A stretch of 34,642 nucleotides of DNA from Deltaproteobacteria bacterium PRO3 (GTDB taxonomy: Bacteria > UBA10199 > DSSB01), in assembly GCA_030263375.1 (NCBI GenBank), contig SZOV01000028.1, positions 1 to 34,642 on the forward strand. The letters run 5' to 3'. The position numbers were made by a program, and so were the translations under genes. The notes beneath the pieces were generated by a model. The model searched no databases. It was not told the origin of the DNA and worked only from the letters and a program-made list of their open reading frames with translations. This document shows positions 5,174 through 34,642 of this stretch, in pieces; the stretch's first letter is position 1, and the number at the start of each line of letters is the position of its first letter.

Positions 5174-6076
5174 ATGAAACCCGCTTGGCTCAAATCGAGG
5201 ATCCCCTCCGGGCAAAACTACCTCCAGCTGAAGGGCATGCTCAAAGAGCTGCGGCTGAACACCGTCTGCGAGGAAGCCCACTGCCCCAACATCGCCGACT
5301 GCTGGGAGCGCCAAACCGCGACCGTGATGATCATGGGCGACATCTGCACTCGGAGCTGCGGCTTCTGCGCGGTGAAGACGGGCAAGCCTTTCGAGCTGGA
5401 CGCGCAAGAGCCCGAGCACGTCGCCGAGGCGATCGCGCGGCTGGGACTGAAGCACGTCGTCATCACCTCGGTGGACCGCGACGACCTGCCCGACGGCGGG
5501 GCCGGGCACTTCGCCAAGACCATCCGCGAGGTCAAGGCACGCTGTCCCGAGACCCAGGTGGAAGTATTGATCCCGGACTTCCGCGGCAAGGGCGACAGCT
5601 TGCATCGCATCTTCGAGGCCGAGCCGCACATCCTCAACCACAACCTCGAGACGGTGAAGCGGCTCCAAAAAACAGTTCGCCCCCAGGCCAGCTACGAGCG
5701 CTCGCTGGAGGTGCTGCAACTCGCTTCGCAGGCGGGAATGGTGGCGAAGAGCGGCCTGATGCTGGGCTTGGGCGAGAGCGACACGGAATTGCGCGAGGCC
5801 CTGCGCGACCTGCGCGAGGTCGGCCGCGTGACGATCCTGACTTTGGGGCAATACCTGCGCCCGACGCCGCAGCACCTCGAGGTGCAACGCTACGTACCGC
5901 CGCTGGAATTCGAGGCCTGGGGGAGGTTCGCCGAGGATCTGGGCTTCGAATACGTCGCCAGCGGGCCGATGGTCCGCAGCTCCTACCACGCCGACGAGGC
6001 GGCGCGCCGCTTCGCCCCGACGCCCCCCGAGGCGGGCAAATCGGACCTACCTGGGCTTACCTTGAAAACGCCTTAA
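5174..6076 (+). CDS. lipA: lipoyl synthase (LipA)
   Basis: A 300-residue radical-SAM enzyme that inserts two sulphurs into protein-bound octanoyl groups to make lipoyl cofactor. The auxiliary 4Fe-4S cluster motif is C32-EEAH-C37-PNIAD-C43, the radical SAM motif is C58-TRS-C62-GF-C65, and the RSSY motif near the C-terminus supplies the Ser ligand of the auxiliary cluster. VVITSVDRDDLPDGGA and LNHNLETV are also diagnostic. Length is normal for the family. No lipB or lplA is in the window. The 3' end overlaps by 30 bases the end of the convergent giant gene at 6047. The start ATG at 5174 fits the usual short N-terminus (KPAWLKSRIPSG). Confidence 0.97.
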   Translation: MKPAWLKSRIPSGQNYLQLKGMLKELRLNTVCEEAHCPNIADCWERQTATVMIMGDICTRSCGFCAVKTGKPFELDAQEPEHVAEAIARLGLKHVVITSVDRDDLPDGGAGHFAKTIREVKARCPETQVEVLIPDFRGKGDSLHRIFEAEPHILNHNLETVKRLQKTVRPQASYERSLEVLQLASQAGMVAKSGLMLGLGESDTELREALRDLREVGRVTILTLGQYLRPTPQHLEVQRYVPPLEFEAWGRFAEDLGFEYVASGPMVRSSYHADEAARRFAPTPPEAGKSDLPGLTLKTP

Positions 6077-9000
6077 GCGGACCGACGAATCGACTTCGGA
6101 TGCTTTGAACCCGTCGGACACCAAGGCCCGTTTGAGTTCCGAAAACCGGCCCGTCGGGAGGGTGACGCTGAGATAACCGCGCCCCCGCTCGACTAACACC
6201 GGCGGGAGCGGGTCGGGAAAGCTGAGCGGAGCAGGGACCAGCAAGGCGACGGAAAAATCCGATTTCGGGTCCGGCAAACTCCGGAGCGCCACCCACACGG
6301 CGCCATACCAAAACCGCCTCCGTGCCTGGATGTCGCGGGAATCTTCCGGCGTCGGCAAAGAGACAAGCTTCGGGTTGGCGTAATTCCACACGCGCCGCGC
6401 CTCCAAAAGCCCTCGCTTCCGCAAAATTCGCAGGGCCAGCGTCAGCTGGGGATTTCGGTAGGTCCCGTATTGATGAATTTCTTTGGTGACGTCCCGAGCC
6501 AGGGTCCAGTCCATTTGCTTCGGGTAGCGCGGGGCGAGCCCGGCGATGCCGGCCAAGACGTATTCCTGCGCGACCTTCCAAAGGTGGTGATCTCTCGGCA
6601 GGTTCTGGCGGCGCAACAAGAGGACCGCATCCAAGATCAATCCCGGCCTCTCGAGGGCGAACAGCCTCAACAAGATCGGCGGGACCGCGGGCGGATTCGC
6701 CTCGAGGATTCTCGACAACTCCCGCCAAGCCGCCTTGTCGCCGGCCTCGACCCGCTCGATCAAAGGCAAGTACCGTCGAATGTAGGAATAGCTCTCGGAC
6801 GTCGGCCCCTGCCGCTCTTGGACCTCCGGCACGGGGAGCCATCCGCGTCGTGCCAAGGCCTGATTGACGTCCTGCAATACATAATCACGGAGCGCCCCGA
6901 ACCGTTCGAAGAAATTTTCGGTCAAGGCTCGCAGGTCCCCCAACTGGGTCAGGCCGTTTTCCGACATCAGCCGCTGGGTGAGGGTGGCTAGGCCCAGGCT
7001 TCGGAGGGGCGTGGCCATTTCTCCCTCCCAATTCGGCCGATGGAACGGATCCGCGGGCTCTTCCCGGTGAAAGGGGAGAAGGTACCGGCTCATGGAGGGA
7101 TGCCGCAGCTTGCTTAAGGTCTCCAGCTCGATCTGCCGCACCCGCTCGGGGGTTATCATGCCTAGCCTAGGCGCTATCTTATTGAGAGTCGAGGGCTCGG
7201 CCTCGCCCAGCCCATAGCGCAGCTCCAACACTTGCCTTCTATTGTCGGAAAGCTGGGACAACACGGCCCGAACATTCTCCGCCAATCTTTTCGCATCCAA
7301 TCTCTCGACCGGCGTCTCCGCCTCCGGAGGCAGGCGCGGCTGCTCGCTCCCCCATAGCGAAGACAGCTTGACGTTTCCCGCGACGTCCAAGGCGTCCAAA
7401 TAGTTGGGATCGAATCTTTCTTCCAAACCCTCGACCGCCGCCTCGCGATCCTTGGCCCCGCGGCCCCGCTCGGTCACAAAGGCTCCGATCGCATTGCGCA
7501 GGACCTCCGAGTCAGCGACGCCGGAGTCGAGTAGCCAGCGATAGACTTCCTCCAAACTTTGCGGCTGAAGGGAAAACTGGCCTCGAAACCGGTGGATCAT
7601 CGTGCTGTATTGCGTTTTGGAAATGGCGCCGCTTCCCACCAAGGACCGCAAGCTTCCACTCCCCGCCTGGAGTAGGACCGCCCTTCGGAACAAGCGCGTC
7701 AGGTTCCTCTGGGCCTCCCCCATCTCCGCAGGAAAGGGATAGGCGGTTTCCAATAAAACCATTTTGTCCTGGAGCCAGGCCTCGCCCAAAGCGGTCGGGG
7801 AAATTCCCAACCGCTTGGCAAGCTGAACCGCCTCCAGATGGGTCTCCGGCAGGATACCGTGCAGCAGGGCGTCGCACTCGGCGAGCCGCAGCTTCGCCTG
7901 CTCGGACATGCGGAGGACGTCGCCGCCGAATTGCTCCTGCAAGACCTCCCGAATTTGCCGAGCGAAGGAGTCCGTCTCCGCTTGCAGAGACGCCGTCTCC
8001 CCCGAAGCGCCCGGCGTCAAGAGCGGCTTGCGGCCCCGCGGCGGCTTGGCGGGGGCGGACCCCTTCGCTCCCACCTCGGTCTCGCCGGGGCGGTAGACCC
8101 GGCCGGGGGGTGGCTTGCGATACGCGCCCAAGAGGGTGGCGGCGCTCTGCGCCCGCTGCAAGGGCATCGCCCTGCCCTCCATCGTGACGATCAAGACATC
8201 GCGCTGCGCCTCGCCTTCCTGGCGGGCCAGCGGGCGGCTGGAACGCTGGGCGAAGAGATTCCAGGACGAGGTCTGGTAGCCGTGGATCACGCCGTGGACG
8301 CCCAAGGCGCGAAACGAGGCGGCGAGGCGGCGGACGCCGATCAAGACCTTAGCGCCCTCCCCGCTCGAGAATCGCTGCGTAACCAAGTCGACGTTTCGGT
8401 CGGCGGTCTCGCCCGTGACCGCCACGGCATAAGCGGGGCCCAGGCGGGCGTTGAAATCCGCCTCCAAATCCTTCGCGGCCTGGACGGACTGGACGAAGAC
8501 CATGGCCTTCTTCCCGCCCAAGTACTGCTCGTAGGTTTCCAGGATCCTGCGCCGATTTTCCGGGGTATTGCGCATCGCCACGAGGGACTCCGCCCCGTCC
8601 TCGACCCGCTCCGAATCCTCCGCCGTTTTTCCGTAGGGAACCTCCAGGCCGTAGACCCGATGCAGGTAGCCCTCTTGGACGAACCAATTCAGCCCGCGAC
8701 CGGCGAGGAAGGTGTCGCCGAAGAACTCCCGCACGTGACGGCCGTCTTCGCGCTCCCCAGTCCCGCCCAGTCCCAGGGCGAACTTGTCCCGGCTCCGCGT
8801 CGGACGTCCTTCGCCGTCGACGAAGCCCAAGGTGCCCAGGATGAGCCGCCAGCTGTCGGCCAAGACGTAGGTCAGCTCGTCGACGACGACCAGGCCGAAA
8901 CGCTCCGGTTGAAAGGGAAGGTCCCCGGCCGCGGCCTGCTTTAAATACCTCGCCAGGCTGTAGACGCTCGCCACGACGACCTCGCCGTCCAGATTTTTCT

Positions 9001-10522
9001 GTTGGGCGTCGAAGACGCTGACCCGGCCGCGGAAGGTGGTGGCGAGGTCCCTCAAGACCTGGGACTGGACGATCTTGAAGGGAGAAAGGACCAGGGTTTG
9101 CTTTCGGGGGAAGATGCCGCGGGCCGCCTCGGCCAAGGGGCCGATGATCAGGGATTTGCCGGTTTGAAAGGGCGAGAGGATGTAACCTCGATCGAGCAGA
9201 GTTGGGACGGGCCCCTGGCCGCCCTGGCTCGCGGCCTTGCGCATCGCCTCGACGGCGGCTTTCAGGTATTCGCGTTGGTAGGGCCGCAGGCGCAGGCCGG
9301 CCGCTTCGGGAGGCAAAGAGGGTTCGGCGGGGTGCCCTCCGCGGGCCTCGAGGGGTGCGACCTCCGGGGCCTTCCCGGCGGGGGACTTGCCCTGGGCCTT
9401 CGGATCCAGGCTCGAAGCCAGATAAACCGGGGAGCGCGGACCGGGATCGAGGTTGGGGACGGCGACGGTCGGCCCGGACACCCCGCCCGCCATCGCCAAG
9501 GGACGAAGCGACTCGAGGCGATTTAGCGTCGGGACAGCTTCAGCGGCGCGCAGATTCAGCGCCCGTTGCAAGCGCGCAAATCTCTCGCCTAGGACCCGAT
9601 GGCCGAGCCGGCTGCCGATGCCCAAGCTGAACATCGAGGCCAAGGTGTCGGTGACGGCCGTCGCGCCGTCGACGTGCGGGCGCAGACCGACCTCCGCCTC
9701 GACCCGATGAGCCGCCATCAGGCCTAGGAACATCGCGACCTGCGGCAACGCCGCATGCTGAAACTTCTGAATCCTCCCGCCGAGGGAGGGCGCGCCCTGC
9801 AGCGCCCGCTGGGCCAAGTATCCAGAACCCTTCAAGGCCGCGAGGGTGATGGCCGCCCCCGCCAAGTCCTTGGCGACGCTCCCGCCGTCCCAGGAGACCG
9901 CTTCGCCTCCTAAATCCCGCAGTCCCCGGCTGGACAGCGCGAAGACCGGGACCTCCGCAGCGTAACCGAGCAGCCCGGCCGAGAGACGGGCGCCGAAGCC
10001 CCGCCGGTGCCAGGCGGCGCTCGCGCCGGAAAGCAGGCGGCCGAGGCTCGCCGCGCGCACCGACTGAAAGACGACCGAGCCCGCGATCATGGGGACGATC
10101 ATCCGGTAGTCGGTCGCGTCCCGCACGAAGCGCCCGGCCAAGACCTCGAAGCGGGCCCCGAAGGCGCCTTGGCCCTGCAAGGCCTCGAGGCGGGACCGGG
10201 CGCGCGAAACCACCTCGGCGGCGGGGCCCGGCGGCGGCTGCGAATCCAGCGCGGCGATCGCGGCGTAGAGCTCGGCGGCCGACGCGAGCTCTCCGCCCTC
10301 GCGCAGCCGGTCCGCGAAGCCTAGCGCGCCTTGAAAAAACAAGGTCGGATCGGTCTCCAGACCCAGCTGCCGCCATTCGCGCGCGTAAGCGGGATGGGCG
10401 AGGCAGGGCAATGCTTGGAAGGCCTCCAAGAACTGAGACACGGAGTTCGACGGCGCGGTTCCCGGGAGGGGATCGCGATGTGCATGGCCGCGCGACAGAC
10501 GCGGGCCGGCCCCGGCATGCAT
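6047..10522 (-). CDS. giant fusion: membrane-like module + SF2 helicase-like + sigma-70 region 4-like + alpha-CTD-like
   Basis: 1491 residues from the ATG at 10522, which has AAGG at good spacing; the frame is open to a TTG at 10708 (1553 aa). Residues 1-140 are helical. Residues 142-325 form a hydrophobic Gly/Ala-rich module shared with two other genes here. A linker follows, then a DEAD/ResIII-like helicase region at about 410-800: RLRPYQREYL, a Walker A-like SPFQTGKSL (451-457), VVVDELTY (DELT at 548-551), LGLGGTGEREDG where TATPERxDG is usual, and QRSSRPLARQ as a motif VI remnant. Residues 1069-1141 resemble sigma-70 region 4 (LSDNRRQVLELRYGLG, ERVRQIELETLSKLRHP). Residues 1171-1228 resemble the RNA polymerase alpha C-terminal HhH domain. 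The last 260 residues are unrecognised. Altered helicase motifs leave catalytic activity uncertain. DNA binding and contact with transcription are inference. Confidence 0.85.
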   Translation of the reverse strand: MHAGAGPRLSRGHAHRDPLPGTAPSNSVSQFLEAFQALPCLAHPAYAREWRQLGLETDPTLFFQGALGFADRLREGGELASAAELYAAIAALDSQPPPGPAAEVVSRARSRLEALQGQGAFGARFEVLAGRFVRDATDYRMIVPMIAGSVVFQSVRAASLGRLLSGASAAWHRRGFGARLSAGLLGYAAEVPVFALSSRGLRDLGGEAVSWDGGSVAKDLAGAAITLAALKGSGYLAQRALQGAPSLGGRIQKFQHAALPQVAMFLGLMAAHRVEAEVGLRPHVDGATAVTDTLASMFSLGIGSRLGHRVLGERFARLQRALNLRAAEAVPTLNRLESLRPLAMAGGVSGPTVAVPNLDPGPRSPVYLASSLDPKAQGKSPAGKAPEVAPLEARGGHPAEPSLPPEAAGLRLRPYQREYLKAAVEAMRKAASQGGQGPVPTLLDRGYILSPFQTGKSLIIGPLAEAARGIFPRKQTLVLSPFKIVQSQVLRDLATTFRGRVSVFDAQQKNLDGEVVVASVYSLARYLKQAAAGDLPFQPERFGLVVVDELTYVLADSWRLILGTLGFVDGEGRPTRSRDKFALGLGGTGEREDGRHVREFFGDTFLAGRGLNWFVQEGYLHRVYGLEVPYGKTAEDSERVEDGAESLVAMRNTPENRRRILETYEQYLGGKKAMVFVQSVQAAKDLEADFNARLGPAYAVAVTGETADRNVDLVTQRFSSGEGAKVLIGVRRLAASFRALGVHGVIHGYQTSSWNLFAQRSSRPLARQEGEAQRDVLIVTMEGRAMPLQRAQSAATLLGAYRKPPPGRVYRPGETEVGAKGSAPAKPPRGRKPLLTPGASGETASLQAETDSFARQIREVLQEQFGGDVLRMSEQAKLRLAECDALLHGILPETHLEAVQLAKRLGISPTALGEAWLQDKMVLLETAYPFPAEMGEAQRNLTRLFRRAVLLQAGSGSLRSLVGSGAISKTQYSTMIHRFRGQFSLQPQSLEEVYRWLLDSGVADSEVLRNAIGAFVTERGRGAKDREAAVEGLEERFDPNYLDALDVAGNVKLSSLWGSEQPRLPPEAETPVERLDAKRLAENVRAVLSQLSDNRRQVLELRYGLGEAEPSTLNKIAPRLGMITPERVRQIELETLSKLRHPSMSRYLLPFHREEPADPFHRPNWEGEMATPLRSLGLATLTQRLMSENGLTQLGDLRALTENFFERFGALRDYVLQDVNQALARRGWLPVPEVQERQGPTSESYSYIRRYLPLIERVEAGDKAAWRELSRILEANPPAVPPILLRLFALERPGLILDAVLLLRRQNLPRDHHLWKVAQEYVLAGIAGLAPRYPKQMDWTLARDVTKEIHQYGTYRNPQLTLALRILRKRGLLEARRVWNYANPKLVSLPTPEDSRDIQARRRFWYGAVWVALRSLPDPKSDFSVALLVPAPLSFPDPLPPVLVERGRGYLSVTLPTGRFSELKRALVSDGFKASEVDSSVRLRRFQGKPR

Positions 10523-10682
10523 AGACACCTTCAAATCTTTGAATTTAAGCCTTAGGTAGGTAAGCCACGACTTATCGTTGGGAGGACCGAAAAGTTGCGC
10601 CGCCGCGGAACCGAAGACTGCGGCAACTGCCGCCGCCTGCCGCCGATAATCTCTCACACCTCGGGGGCCCCGACGGAGCCCC
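10523..10682. promoter_or_regulatory. divergent intergenic region between two giant genes
   Basis: 160 bases separate the preferred starts of two divergent large genes. The left part is A/T-richer (CTTTGAATTTAAGCC around 10537-10551) than the surrounding GC-rich coding sequence, as expected of a promoter region. I see no convincing -35/-10 pair. GGAG ends five bases before the TTG start of the right gene, and AAGG precedes the ATG of the left gene. Confidence 0.35.
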
Positions 10683-13600
10683 TTGTCTCCCCCGTTTTTC
10701 AACTTCAACCGCCGCCTGCCGGGCCTCGCGACCCTGGCCCGCCTGCAGCCGACGCCGGTGAGGCCCGGCGAGCCCGACGCGTCCTATTTGGACGCCCGCC
10801 GGGAGGCCTTCCGCGACAGTTTCGCCCGCGCGGGGGAAGGGGATCCCGCCGCGCCGGCGGGCGACCTCGAGGCGGCGATCACCCTGGCCGAAAGCATGGC
10901 CCGCGGCGGCTCGCTCGGGGAGTACGCGGCGGTGCTCAACTTCCGCGCCCTGCAGCTGGAAAGGGCCCGCGAGCCGGCCGAGCGCGGTCGGATCCGCGCG
11001 GCGGCGCTGCGCTGGGCGGAGGAGGCGTTGCAAGCCGTCTCCACCGCGCCAGGCTTCACCCGCGACCGGGTCCGCGCCCTCTACGACAACGTCCTGGCCT
11101 TGAGCGCCGTCCTCGCCCGCGAGGGCCGGGCCGAATTACCCGAGGCAGAACGGGAATTGCTGCGGAGCTTCTTCGTCCAGATCCGCGGCGGCATCGAGCA
11201 GCACCGCCTCGAGAGCGGGTCCCATCCCGAGTACGCGCCCATCCCCGAATATTTCGAGAGCTACGCCCGCGCCGAGCAGGCCCTGTTAGAGGGCGAGACC
11301 GAGGCGGCGCTGCGGGCCTTCCTCGAGACGCGCGCGTCGATTCGCGACCTGCCCGGTGCGGGCCTGTTTCGTACCCGCGTCGAGCGCGGGACGGAGTACG
11401 CGATCCGCGCCCTGCAGGGCGACAGCTCGGGGACCTTTTTGGAAAACCTGCGCAGCCGCTCGAGCCTCGACGCCCTCCTGCTCTTCGACCAAGTCGACGG
11501 CGGCGCCCAGGCGGATCTACAAGCCTTAAGCCTGGCGGCCCTCGCCCTTGCGGAGGGAGACTGGCGCGGTGCCGGCGCCCGCGGCCTCTTGGAATTTCTG
11601 CGCGGCGTCCCCGCCTATCCGGAAGGCGAGGTCACCGCCGTCCTTCAGGATTTGGAGGCCATTTACGCCTCACGGCCCGAGTTTCGAAGGGCCTGCAAGG
11701 CCGGACACTTCGCCCCGGCCGACGCCTCTACGGACGCCGTATGCCGGGCCCTGCTCCGGCACGCCGCAATCGCTGCACGGCGCATCCTCGAACGGCAAGA
11801 TCAGGAACCCTATGCAACCGTCTTTCGCCGCGACGCCGAAGACCGACCGCTGCGCCTAGCTGTGGAACGATTGCAAGAGTCGCCGGAGCTCACGCGCGAA
11901 ATCCGGAACCTCTTGAACGTTCCCTCCAACCTGCCGCAGCGCCTCCTGGTGCAGCAGCTGGTGGAATACGGATCGCTGGCCGAGACGATGCTGGAGAGCC
12001 TGCCCGCCGCCACGCGCGAGCTGGCCGCCTATGCCGACTTCTCGCGCGCCGTCCTCCAAGTCGCCGATGGAGGCGCGGACCGACGGCGTCGGCGCCTCGA
12101 ACAGCCCCTGTCGGATCTGGTCGAATCGCTGGGCGCCCTCTCCCGCGACGACGAACGCTACGCCCCGGCTTATGAGTATTTCTTCCGCAACCTCGCCGAG
12201 ACCGAGGGCGAGATCGCGCCCGGCGTGACGCTTCCGGAGGCCCTGCGAAACCGCGCCGCCGCCCTGCGCGCCGCGCTCACCGACTTCAACGGCCGCCGCC
12301 TCTTCCGCCACCTGAGCTCCGCCGACTCGCTGCTCGGCCTGGCCGGCGGCATCGCGCTGACCGAGCTGATGCCCCTCGGCCTCCTGCGCTGGGCCCGCAA
12401 CGGCGGGACCTGGCTGCGGGCCGGACGCCTCACCTGGCAGTCCGAGCTGGCGGTGGGTCTGGGCGTCGGCGTCGCAATGTCGGCGGTCGGCGGCGTCCAC
12501 CACTTGGCGACCTCGCCGCGCCCCTGGCGCGAGGAGCTCCCGCGGGCCCTGCCCGCGCTCGCCCTCGGCACCCTGTTCAGCAGCCTCGGCATGGCGGGGA
12601 CCATGGGCCTCGGACATTTAAGTCGCCGCGCCTTCCTCGCCGAGGGCGTGGCCGGTCCCGCGGCGCTGCGCTACTGGGGCGCCCGCGGCCTGACCTTCTT
12701 GGGCGGCGGCGGGCTGATGTTGGGCGCCGGCGTCCTGACGGAGGGAACGACCACCGGACATTGGCGACTACCCTCGGCCGAGACCGCCGCCGAGACCTAC
12801 CTGCACTTCCTGATGTGGGACTTGGGCGCGGCCGGGCTGCGGCGCTTGGGCCACCGCTTCTGGTGGCGCGCGCAGCTGGGGCCGCAGCTCCTGCGCACGC
12901 GCGTCGAGCCGATGAGCGCTCGCCTGCAAGAGCGCAATCCCTGGCTGGCGCAAACGCCGGGTGAGATCGAGGCGCTGGAGGCCCATCTGGGGAGGCGGCT
13001 CCTCTCCGGACGCGACATGGCCGACCTTGAGAGCGGTCTCGCCGGAGGCCTGGAACCTTACTGGTACGATGGAACGATTGCCTTCCGCGCGCGCGCCGAG
13101 CCCGGGCCCCGCCGTGCGGAGCCGGCCCGAGTCGCGGCGCCTCCCGCCCCGGCCGACCGCGCCGACGAGGTCCGCGGCCCCGACCGGGCCTTGCCGGTCG
13201 AGCGGCGCCCGATGGACGCGATCCACAACATCACCTTCGAGACCCTCCAGGCCCTCTGGAACCTCCCGATGCGCGCCCTGCCCCGCGAGATCCTGAGCAG
13301 TCCCCTCCTGCGCCCGATCCACCACCTGCGAGTCGGCGGCCATGATTTTTACTTAAGCCGCGTGATCGAGGCGGTGCGGACCCGATCCAACGGCGAGACC
13401 GATCGGCGCCGCTACGTCTTGGCCTTGGTACCGGTCGAGGTGGAGGGACAAAGGGTCTTGAAGCGCCGGATGTTCTACGTCTCGGCCTCGGACGCGGGGG
13501 CCTGGCGGGCGAGCCCCTACATGGCCGGCGACGCCCACTTGGCCAAAGGCGTGGGCCGCCACTACACCCAAGAGACGCAGCCGGTCTGGGAGATCGCCGA

Positions 13601-14336
13601 GGCCCTGATGCGCCTGGAGCAAAGCGGACCTCGGCCCCACGAGATGCCCTTGACCCAACTCCTGCGCTACATCTCCACCGCCAGCGAGGCCCTGGGTCCT
13701 GCGGGGGTGCGCACGATGACCTTGGGCTTTCAAGAGGAAGTGGATTTTCCGCGACCCCTGGGCATCAGCAACCTGCGCGCCATGCGCCCCGGCAGCGCCT
13801 TCGCCCTGCCGCCCGGCTGGGGCTGGGGTTCGACCCACGACATCCAAAACACCCTGCGGCAAATGATCAGCCTCTCCTGGCCCGACGGTTTCATCCCGGA
13901 CTTCCACGGCTCTCCCACCCGCGCGATGGCCCAGCCCAACAGCCTGCTGGGCCCCTTGGTCTTTCGGGAGTTCCGCGGCGCCACCGCCGTCGACGGCAAC
14001 ACCGGCCGGACGCGACCCTTGGTCTGGATCATGGGGGAAGACGGCGCGGGCCGCGCCTGGGTGCGGCACATCCACTACGGCGACAGCGAGGTGAATTCCT
14101 ACGGCGTCTACGCGGACGTCCTCGAGTCCGGGATACTGACCTCGAAACCCCTGGAGTACTTCGAGCAGGCCGCCCTGCTGCCCGAGCCGCTGCGCCGCCC
14201 CTTCAACGGGGAATACGTCGACATCAGCCCGGCCCTCACCCTGCTCGAGCCGATCCGACGCTACCGCGAGTCCCGGGGCCTGAGGCCGATGCTCCGCGAG
14301 GAAGACACGCCGACGGTCCTGAACCCCGAACGCTAA
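10683..14336 (+). CDS. large protein: helical repeats, hydrophobic module, unrecognised C-terminal domain
   Basis: 1217 residues from a TTG at 10683 with GGAG upstream. Residues 1-540 are Ala/Leu/Arg/Glu-rich helices that look like TPR-type repeats (for example LAESMARGG, YAAVLNFRALQLERA, ALLEGETEAALRAF). Residues 545-730 hold several hydrophobic Gly-rich segments (LLGLAGGIALTELMPLGLL, ALALGTLFSSLGMAGTMGLG, LTFLGGGGLMLGAGVL) and resemble the module in the divergent gene at 6047 and in the gene at 32669. After a Pro/Ala linker (805-840), residues 845-1217 form a soluble domain (RRMFYVSASDAGAWRASPYM, KGVGRHYTQETQPVWEIAEAL, GWGWGSTHDIQNTLRQM) that I do not recognise. There is no signal peptide. 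Its stop overlaps the stop of the convergent CPBP protease gene. Confidence 0.8.
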   Translation: MSPPFFNFNRRLPGLATLARLQPTPVRPGEPDASYLDARREAFRDSFARAGEGDPAAPAGDLEAAITLAESMARGGSLGEYAAVLNFRALQLERAREPAERGRIRAAALRWAEEALQAVSTAPGFTRDRVRALYDNVLALSAVLAREGRAELPEAERELLRSFFVQIRGGIEQHRLESGSHPEYAPIPEYFESYARAEQALLEGETEAALRAFLETRASIRDLPGAGLFRTRVERGTEYAIRALQGDSSGTFLENLRSRSSLDALLLFDQVDGGAQADLQALSLAALALAEGDWRGAGARGLLEFLRGVPAYPEGEVTAVLQDLEAIYASRPEFRRACKAGHFAPADASTDAVCRALLRHAAIAARRILERQDQEPYATVFRRDAEDRPLRLAVERLQESPELTREIRNLLNVPSNLPQRLLVQQLVEYGSLAETMLESLPAATRELAAYADFSRAVLQVADGGADRRRRRLEQPLSDLVESLGALSRDDERYAPAYEYFFRNLAETEGEIAPGVTLPEALRNRAAALRAALTDFNGRRLFRHLSSADSLLGLAGGIALTELMPLGLLRWARNGGTWLRAGRLTWQSELAVGLGVGVAMSAVGGVHHLATSPRPWREELPRALPALALGTLFSSLGMAGTMGLGHLSRRAFLAEGVAGPAALRYWGARGLTFLGGGGLMLGAGVLTEGTTTGHWRLPSAETAAETYLHFLMWDLGAAGLRRLGHRFWWRAQLGPQLLRTRVEPMSARLQERNPWLAQTPGEIEALEAHLGRRLLSGRDMADLESGLAGGLEPYWYDGTIAFRARAEPGPRRAEPARVAAPPAPADRADEVRGPDRALPVERRPMDAIHNITFETLQALWNLPMRALPREILSSPLLRPIHHLRVGGHDFYLSRVIEAVRTRSNGETDRRRYVLALVPVEVEGQRVLKRRMFYVSASDAGAWRASPYMAGDAHLAKGVGRHYTQETQPVWEIAEALMRLEQSGPRPHEMPLTQLLRYISTASEALGPAGVRTMTLGFQEEVDFPRPLGISNLRAMRPGSAFALPPGWGWGSTHDIQNTLRQMISLSWPDGFIPDFHGSPTRAMAQPNSLLGPLVFREFRGATAVDGNTGRTRPLVWIMGEDGAGRAWVRHIHYGDSEVNSYGVYADVLESGILTSKPLEYFEQAALLPEPLRRPFNGEYVDISPALTLLEPIRRYRESRGLRPMLREEDTPTVLNPER

Positions 14337-32668: not shown

Positions 32669-34642
32669 ATGCTGTTACCCGGTCTTTTCGATCGTTCCGT
32701 TTCCCCGCGCCACACGACAATACACGACCCCGAAACCCTCGAGCCTTCGAGCCGTGCGGCCCTGCGCCGCGCCCTGGGCGAGGCTGGATACGCGGAATAC
32801 CGCTCTATCTTGTCCGACCCTGAGGCGGAGCTCCGCGCCGAAGCCCTGCTTCATTTCGCCCGCCGTCAGGAGCTATCCGGCAACCTCGCGGTGGCCTCGG
32901 AGCTTTACCAGGGCCTCGATGCCGCTGACGCGGAGGTTCCGGCGAACATCGCCGCCCGGGCTCGATCCCAGCGCGACGCGATTCTCGGCGTCGGCGACGG
33001 CGGGCGGCGTGCCGAATTCCTGCTGCGCCGCCTCGCCCTCGAGGCCTGCGACCCGGCCGGCATCGCCGGCATGGTCCTCGCCGGCGGCGTCTTCCGCGTC
33101 ACGCGCCTGGCCGCGCTCGGCCGCCTGGCGGCGACGCCTTCCCTAGGAATGATCTCCCGCGGCTTTCTCGCCCGCGCCGCCGCCTCGACCGCGGCCTTCG
33201 CCCTCGAGGCCCCCGCCTTCACGCTGGGCGCGCGGGCGGCGCACCAGGTGCTGGGCCGCGAGGTCGACTGGAGCGGCCGCGCCCTGGCCAGGGATATTGC
33301 GTCGAGTTATTTGGTGTTGGGGGGATTGAAGGTCGCAGGCTGGGCCGGAGGGGCGGCGTATCGCCATCTTGCGGGATCCGCAGGGACCCTTCGCGAAGGG
33401 CCCCTCCAGCTGCTGTTCCAGCAGGGCGGGATGTTCGGAGGCATCCTCTTCGGCCACTGGCTCGAGGCCGAGGCGGGCTTGAGGCCGCGGCAGTCCGGCG
33501 CCACCACCCTCGTCGATTCCCTGGCGATGCTCGCGCAATTTAACGTGGCCGGTCGCCTCGCCTCGCGGGCCCTGGGCGAAGGCTTCCATGCGCGGGAGCG
33601 TGCCCTGGACCTGCAAACCGAGGCCCTGGCTCGTTCCCTTCCCTGGATACGTCCCCTCGCCCCCCGTCTCGCGCCGCAGCCGGCCTTCGCCGGGGTGGGC
33701 ACCGAGGCCGCATCGTCCGGCGCCGTCCACGACCTGATCCGTGGGGCACAGATCCTGCAAATGTCCATCTTCAAGGACAGCAAGGGCTCGCGCGGCCCCG
33801 AGCCGACGGGCGCCCGCGAGTCCGGCGTCACGCGCAGCGCCGAGCCGAGGGTCTCTCCCGAGGCCATGACCGAGGAGGTCGATTTTTTCCTGAGGGGGGT
33901 CGAAAACCCCGAGCTGGGCCTGCGCGCCTTCCTCGATTCCCTGCCGATCGCCGCGGCGGTCGCGCGCATCAAGGGCGAGGAGGGCTTCGGCCGCATTTTC
34001 GTCGTGAACCAAAAATTCACCGAACTCTTCGGCTACACCGAGCGCCAAGCCGGGGAGCACCCGATCACCCATTTCTTCAGCTTAAAATCGGCTCCCTTCA
34101 TCGCGGCGCGCATCTGGACCATCCTGCGGGGCGGCATCTTCCAGGCCACCAAGATGGATTTCCTCTGCCGCGACGGCAGCTATCGCCAGATTTGGGGAAG
34201 CGGGGTGGTGCGGAGCGTCTACGGCGAGACGCTGGCCTTCGGCTTTTACCAACCGCGGGACGAGAGCCAAACGACCCAGCCGCCGGTACTCGCGCCGCTG
34301 AAGGTCTTTCAGGCCGCCGACCCCGCCCGGCTGCCGTCCCGGGACGCGCAGGGGTTTTTCGAACTGCGCTCCACGATCGAGCTCAGCCTGCAGCTGACCA
34401 ATCCGGACTCGCCCCTGATTCGCCATTTTTTGGAAAATGATTTGAATGTCCGCGTGACCGTTCCGGACAATTACGCCACCCAGAGTTATGCGGAATCCCT
34501 GACGCGGGGCTTGAATCTCTTGGGCCGCCGGACCCAGATCCCAGCCGGCCGGCGCTTTTCGGTGGAGCTGGTCGACAGTTCGGGACGACGCCACAGCTTT
34601 TTGCAGTGGCTGAAACGGCCGGATGGATTCGTTCCCAGCGAG
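32669..34642 (+). CDS. large protein with shared hydrophobic module and PAS domain (3' end outside window)
   Basis: An ATG at 32669 with AGGGAG upstream opens a frame of 658 codons that reaches the window edge without a stop. Residues 30-125 are helical (EAELRAEALLHFARRQELSG). Residues 130-318 are a hydrophobic module that aligns by eye with the one in the gene at 6047: FALEAPAFTLGARA, EVDWSGRALARDIASSYLVLGG, FGHWLEAEAGLRP, SGATTLVDSLAM, RALGEGFHARERALDLQ. After a disordered linker comes a PAS domain at about 415-530 (LDSLPIAAAVARIKGEEG, NQKFTELFGYTERQAGEHP, FLCRDGSYRQIWGSGVVR). The C-terminal part beyond 540 is not recognised. It is probably a signal-sensing member of the three-protein family in this window. 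Confidence 0.85.
   Translation, partial: MLLPGLFDRSVSPRHTTIHDPETLEPSSRAALRRALGEAGYAEYRSILSDPEAELRAEALLHFARRQELSGNLAVASELYQGLDAADAEVPANIAARARSQRDAILGVGDGGRRAEFLLRRLALEACDPAGIAGMVLAGGVFRVTRLAALGRLAATPSLGMISRGFLARAAASTAAFALEAPAFTLGARAAHQVLGREVDWSGRALARDIASSYLVLGGLKVAGWAGGAAYRHLAGSAGTLREGPLQLLFQQGGMFGGILFGHWLEAEAGLRPRQSGATTLVDSLAMLAQFNVAGRLASRALGEGFHARERALDLQTEALARSLPWIRPLAPRLAPQPAFAGVGTEAASSGAVHDLIRGAQILQMSIFKDSKGSRGPEPTGARESGVTRSAEPRVSPEAMTEEVDFFLRGVENPELGLRAFLDSLPIAAAVARIKGEEGFGRIFVVNQKFTELFGYTERQAGEHPITHFFSLKSAPFIAARIWTILRGGIFQATKMDFLCRDGSYRQIWGSGVVRSVYGETLAFGFYQPRDESQTTQPPVLAPLKVFQAADPARLPSRDAQGFFELRSTIELSLQLTNPDSPLIRHFLENDLNVRVTVPDNYATQSYAESLTRGLNLLGRRTQIPAGRRFSVELVDSSGRRHSFLQWLKRPDGFVPSE

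Follow-up and report, generated by a model that had tools for sequence, protein, structure and literature searches.

Here we describe a constant N-terminal unit, composed of a TPR-like helical hairpin and a Gly/Ala-rich helical module, which stands in front of a large set of mostly unrelated proteins in Deltaproteobacteria bacterium PRO3 and its relatives. We interpret the shared region, tentatively and with slightly less than even confidence, as a lineage-specific cytoplasmic docking or assembly module heading 80-90 different proteins in one bacterial family. The window, i.e. the whole stretch of 34,642 nucleotides that was analysed (contig SZOV01000028.1), carries two genes with this unit, referred to here as gene 1 and gene 3. 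A third gene in the window, gene 2, had also been proposed to carry the module.

The shared unit in the window

Comparison of the proteins encoded by genes 1 and 3 revealed 35% identity over 310 residues (BLASTP, E 2e-34), which bears out the clear match between their modules noticed in the original prediction. Since the alignment begins ahead of the hydrophobic part, the shared unit includes the TPR-like hairpin as well as the module. The stretch common to both proteins is about 300 residues long, with about 75 residues in the hairpin and about 200 in the Gly/Ala-rich module.

Gene 1 (6047-10522, minus strand) encodes a leader, the TPR-like hairpin, the module, a linker and a helicase/sigma-region-4 cargo. 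Its open frame spans 6047-10708 on the minus strand, with a likely in-frame ATG at 10522 (residue 63 of the translation). The hairpin precedes the module at 10154-10378 (minus), as aligned with gene 3, and is assigned from the helices predicted for the gene 3 homologue and from VIA matches to TPR and 14-3-3 helices. The six-helix, Gly/Ala-rich module occupies 9548-10153 on the minus strand (profile match E 2.2e-69; AlphaFold2 pLDDT 94.0); the original prediction had placed it at 9548-10099, with no strand given. In the cargo, a ResIII-type helicase at 8837-9295 (minus; PF04851, E 1.9e-7) and a Sigma-70 region 4 (Sigma70_r4) at 7100-7264 (minus; PF04545, E 9.9e-10) both scored above the Pfam cut-off, as anticipated, but the alpha-CTD expected beside them was not detected in a Pfam search of the protein.

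Gene 3 (32669-34642, plus strand) encodes a leader, the TPR-like hairpin, the module and a PAS-like cargo. Its frame is still open at the contig end; the orthologue in the metagenome-assembled genome SJ577 (L113) is an uninterrupted frame of 732 residues. The hairpin lies at 32783-33007 (plus), with AlphaFold2 helices within model residues 2-81, and the module, again six-helix and Gly/Ala-rich, at 33008-33616 (plus; profile match E 4.5e-79), where 33056-33622 had been proposed. The PAS-like stretch at 33989-34213 (plus) matched PAS_8, PAS_3 and PAS_9 with E of about 0.001, below the Pfam cut-off; the predicted PAS output thus falls short in gene 3 itself, but a paralogue (c18), 42% identical over 351 residues, just passes the cut-off with PAS_9 at 4.5e-6.

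In nearly all complete copies of the family the same order was found, namely a short, weakly conserved leader, the hairpin, the module, a Pro-rich linker and the cargo. AlphaFold2 gave pLDDT 91.7 and pTM 0.83 for hairpin plus module (of gene 3), and pLDDT 94.0 and pTM 0.84 for the module alone, which is thereby confidently predicted as a six-helix bundle; five of the helices have lengths of 27-43 residues. Sequence searches of Pfam and PDB turned up nothing related to the module, and with Foldseek no PDB or BFVD entry matched at E < 0.3. In a second look with VIA the module alone reached a Z of at most 5.4, mostly with membrane proteins, and no convincing relative emerged. A known fold was rejected on the basis of the Foldseek and VIA searches, which does not by itself prove a new one. 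The hairpin of about 75 residues resembles TPR and 14-3-3-like repeats (VIA Z about 7-8), although the best E with the TPR Pfam model was 0.031, a level of about 0.03 being reached by 2 of 31 family members, and the six-helix module behind it is not a TPR. With the mitochondrial carrier fold the predicted module shares a six-helix bundle and low hydrophobicity. UCP1 aligned with the longer model over 172 residues (VIA Z 8.0, rmsd 4.4), but this Z lies below the noise level for helical bundles and the module alone reached 4.4. As far as the libraries searched go, the domain itself is undescribed.

The weaker match claimed for gene 2 (10683-14336, plus strand) did not hold. BLASTP detected no similarity of its protein to those of genes 1 and 3, profile-profile comparison with the module (hhalign) stayed at noise with nothing convincing, and gene 2 was absent from the matches of the module profile search. 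In several comparisons the reversed gene 2 profile scored as high as or higher than the real one (26.0 versus 17.3 against the module profile). Gene 2 was therefore rejected as a third copy, the pairwise, profile and HMM tests having failed and the reversed-profile control being equal or better, and the three-gene module of the original prediction is retained for genes 1 and 3 only. By eye, the helix pattern of the Gly-rich region of gene 2 (12120-12917) parallels that of the module; at the sequence level its N-half (residues 1-765; 10683-12977, plus) has no demonstrable homology to it and is assigned to a smaller paralogous family, termed B type. The proteins of this second family (also L177 and L181) are large, their N-half being helical and their C-part varying from one to the next, and the gene 2-type N-half is common to a few other proteins, three of which are neighbours on contig C51. 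The gene 2 C-terminal domain (residues 775-1217; 13005-14333, plus) also follows a genuine module, diverged but clear, in a protein of 1215 residues from contig C48 of the PRO3 genome, so that one cargo now stands behind two different N-parts. It is present as well inside giant proteins of the PRO3 genome (G000:C7) and of G004, a genome of another genus in the family (G004:C98). These are L179:2-7366 (2455 residues), which by eye also has a RelA/SpoT-like stretch, and L180:1-13803 (at least 4601 residues).

Copy number, inheritance and cargos

When the 3.55 Mb PRO3 genome was searched, 73 module matches were obtained with a single sequence and 83 with a profile of 52 rows. The same profile found 69 and 68 copies in two genomes of the same genus, and 93 (G004) and 40 in two other genera of the family. 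In two further genomes of the family, G005 and G006 (73% and 82% complete, respectively), it found no module copy. Outside the family the number drops steeply: six copies in the sister family, and in the rest of the class one or two weak matches in two more genomes only. A longer profile, run against 385 genomes, gave matches confined to the class. The named relatives are metagenome-assembled genomes under the label 'Deltaproteobacteria bacterium': SJ577, a Lake Fargette / Lac Pavin MAG, and OFTM172. The module family belongs to a little-known lineage of lake bacteria. The proposal of an undescribed modular family is strongly supported by the 83 copies (with 93 in a related genus), the mostly unrelated C-parts, the lack of a Pfam or PDB relative and the restriction to one lineage. 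A viral or plasmid origin of the module was rejected, as no relative was present in viral_contigs or plasmids. The 74 well-defined PRO3 copies make up 5.9% of the bases of the genome when whole open frames are counted.

Palindromic elements of the form TAGGGGC...GCCCCTA, 26-137 bp long, were observed in frame inside genes of the module family, for example at L032:7688-7713, L044:1763-1827, L055:2295-2431 and L049:958-1022 in PRO3. Over 495 kb, 13 of them were located in the hairpin region, 7 in the module, 1 in a cargo and 6 elsewhere. Palindromic elements of Rickettsia were reportedly described by Ogata in 2000 and 2002. They are likewise palindromic DNA inserted in frame within coding sequences (PMC10969869), whereas those described here are concentrated in two places of one paralogous family.

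Comparison of PRO3 module genes with their SJ577 orthologues gave Ka/Ks values of mostly 0.04-0.26 for the module (0.42 in one short comparison) and 0.10-0.29 for the cargo. Module and cargo are both under purifying selection. The hairpin was looser (0.05-0.54) and the linker loosest (0.09-1.06). We also checked co-inheritance with 12 strong cargo orthologues in G004. For 8 of the 12, the best match, out of about 70 modules, was that of the same gene; in 3 of the remaining 4 the PRO3 module copy is truncated or split. Judging from these matches, most module-cargo pairs have stayed together since the ancestor of these genera. In the PRO3 gene for a sigma-70/amine oxidase protein an in-frame TGA in the module region (L040:7276-7280) splits the frame; the corresponding frames in SJ577 and G004 are uninterrupted.

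These data bear on the possibility that the module is a hitchhiker in evolution which duplication and fusion have spread, and whose only common function would be to help large proteins fold or stay stable. In its favour stand the burst restricted to one lineage, the truncated or split copies of PRO3 and the tandem copies: 16 adjacent pairs of module genes, one of them a split gene, point to tandem growth of the family. We nevertheless consider it quite unlikely, for purifying selection on the module is strong, the position of the module is nearly constant and 40-93 copies have been kept in five genomes of the family.

The cargos are mostly unrelated among themselves. The recognised ones comprise two acetyl-CoA carboxylase-like proteins of large size, a ketosynthase and a fungal-FAS-beta-like protein. 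Ser/Thr kinases are present twice and a histidine-kinase ATPase domain in four proteins; PAS, FHA, GGDEF with HTH, HTH, sigma-70 with amine oxidase, and helicase with sigma region 4 occur as well. Methyltransferase plus aminotransferase, transglutaminase-like plus TPR, permease and PLP-enzyme cargos were also present, and in a sister-family genome the module stands before a proline dehydrogenase/aldehyde dehydrogenase protein. For roughly half of the cargos no family is recognised, so that a description as enzymes and regulators covers the recognised ones only. Two large unknown cargos, compared with PDB sequences, matched nothing. Catalytic motifs were intact in one acetyl-CoA carboxylase (biotin AMKM), in both Ser/Thr kinases (HRDLKP and DFG) and in the GGDEF protein (GGEEF); the Cys-His-His set of the ketosynthase was read by eye from the sequence. 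Eight cargos with no Pfam match (group A7; L034, L039, L064, L067, L072, L078, L082) share an invariant HExxH and a downstream Glu, and are on that account read as putative zinc metallopeptidases. That the module is paired with signalling or transcription parts, as had been foreseen, holds in part; acetyl-CoA carboxylase, type I fatty acid synthase parts, aminotransferase and the putative metallopeptidases are equally prominent. Clustering was observed for the module-bearing parts of type I fatty acid synthase and the large, module-bearing single-chain acetyl-CoA carboxylases (L031, L050, L147), and the ketosynthase matches in the PRO3 genome were the module-bearing one and one partial match. 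Membership in a defence system was rejected: among the PADLOC matches listed there were at most two members each, mostly of kinase-type models, and these matches fit the two Ser/Thr kinases.

Membrane association, export and docking

To the earlier suggestion that the module is membrane-docked, hydropathy lent no support. With a 19-residue Kyte-Doolittle mean and a threshold of 1.8, none of 74 PRO3 proteins had a candidate transmembrane or signal segment in its leader or within the module, and for the cargo the number was only 2 of the 74; the aquaporin and desaturase encoded in the window were clearly picked up. The averaged hydropathy of the module was at most 1.23 among the windows listed, as compared with 1.67-2.13 for the aquaporin. 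The module is more hydrophobic than the cargos and has fewer charged residues (17% versus 26%; aquaporin, 11%). With no segment above 1.8 and 17% charged residues, a classical membrane anchor is unlikely as judged from the sequences. A polar-lined or peripheral membrane association of the module is possible in view of its hydrophobic, low-charge composition and of its weak structural matches, which are mostly to membrane proteins.

A related reading, to which we give a rather low probability, is that the module is a weakly hydrophobic membrane anchor, inserted as a polar-lined bundle or lying on the inner membrane, which gathers the cargos there. Its five Gly-, Ala- and Leu-rich helices, 27-43 residues long, would suit such a role, 5 of 62 module copies do pass a lower hydropathy threshold of 1.6, and some cargos are themselves membrane proteins, one kinase protein having a transmembrane segment after the kinase domain and others having permease-like segments. 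The VIA matches of the module, mostly membrane proteins such as aquaporins and carriers, with UCP1 at Z 8.0 for hairpin plus module, point the same way, but such Z values are noise for helical bundles, and the low hydropathy and 17% charged residues given above argue against an anchor.

The constant N-part and variable C-part, the absence of a Sec signal and the many paralogues, with kinases and HExxH proteins among the cargos, would also suit effectors delivered into other cells, the N-part translocating and the C-parts acting in the target. Polymorphic toxins are built from a conserved N-terminal part and variable C-terminal domains (PMC3482391), and it is this layout only that is alike. The recognised cargos here are largely metabolic or regulatory, including housekeeping-type enzymes and bacterial regulators (acetyl-CoA carboxylase, fatty acid synthase, sigma-70, histidine kinases, GGDEF), and they mostly stay with their module across genera, unlike the C-domains of polymorphic toxins, which are exchanged by recombination. 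Searches for the type VI secretion sheath protein VipB and for FHIPEP found no specialised secretion system; VipB was not found, and each genome has one FHIPEP protein, which fits with a flagellum and nothing more. Delivery into other cells is regarded as very improbable.

A cytoplasmic docking or assembly module would explain together the constant N-part, the diverse cargo, the lack of export signals, the flexible linker and the purifying selection. The TPR-like hairpin and six-helix bundle would bind a common partner, or themselves, and this binding would gather metabolic enzymes, kinases, regulators and proteases into one complex or place. The Pro-rich linker, with its relaxed constraint, may let every cargo work freely. 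Judging from their sequences, the module proteins would be cytoplasmic, and a self-assembling scaffold, as originally suggested, would be compatible with the data.

Dockerins are short calcium-binding modules on secreted enzymes. As in the cellulosome, one conserved module is found on many different enzymes and would gather them in one assembly; in contrast to dockerins, the unit here is N-terminal, all-helical and about 300 residues long, and the proteins have no signal peptides. By analogy, the module would work most like a dockerin, whose addressing role lies outside the cell, or like an encapsulation tag, which serves a compartment; it is likened and not assigned to these, and may be an address tag for use inside the cell. 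A bolder version, which we regard as doubtful, is that 2-3% of the genes carry one helical domain as an address inside the cell, by which functions in fatty acid synthesis, signalling, transcription and proteolysis are recruited to one undescribed compartment or super-assembly. A limited literature search returned no parallel for such a domain, with 83-93 copies per genome and such diverse partners, and we know of none of this size, copy number and partner diversity.

At the least, a large protein family has been defined, and with it a starting point for dozens of cargos whose function is unknown. The recurrence of one front piece on large proteins that are otherwise unrelated, more than 80 in number, suggests an internal 'address tag' or assembly system not yet described. 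If the module is a docking tag, a single interaction would underlie much of the cytoplasmic organisation of these uncultured bacteria, and the tag could be borrowed and studied as a general recruitment module.
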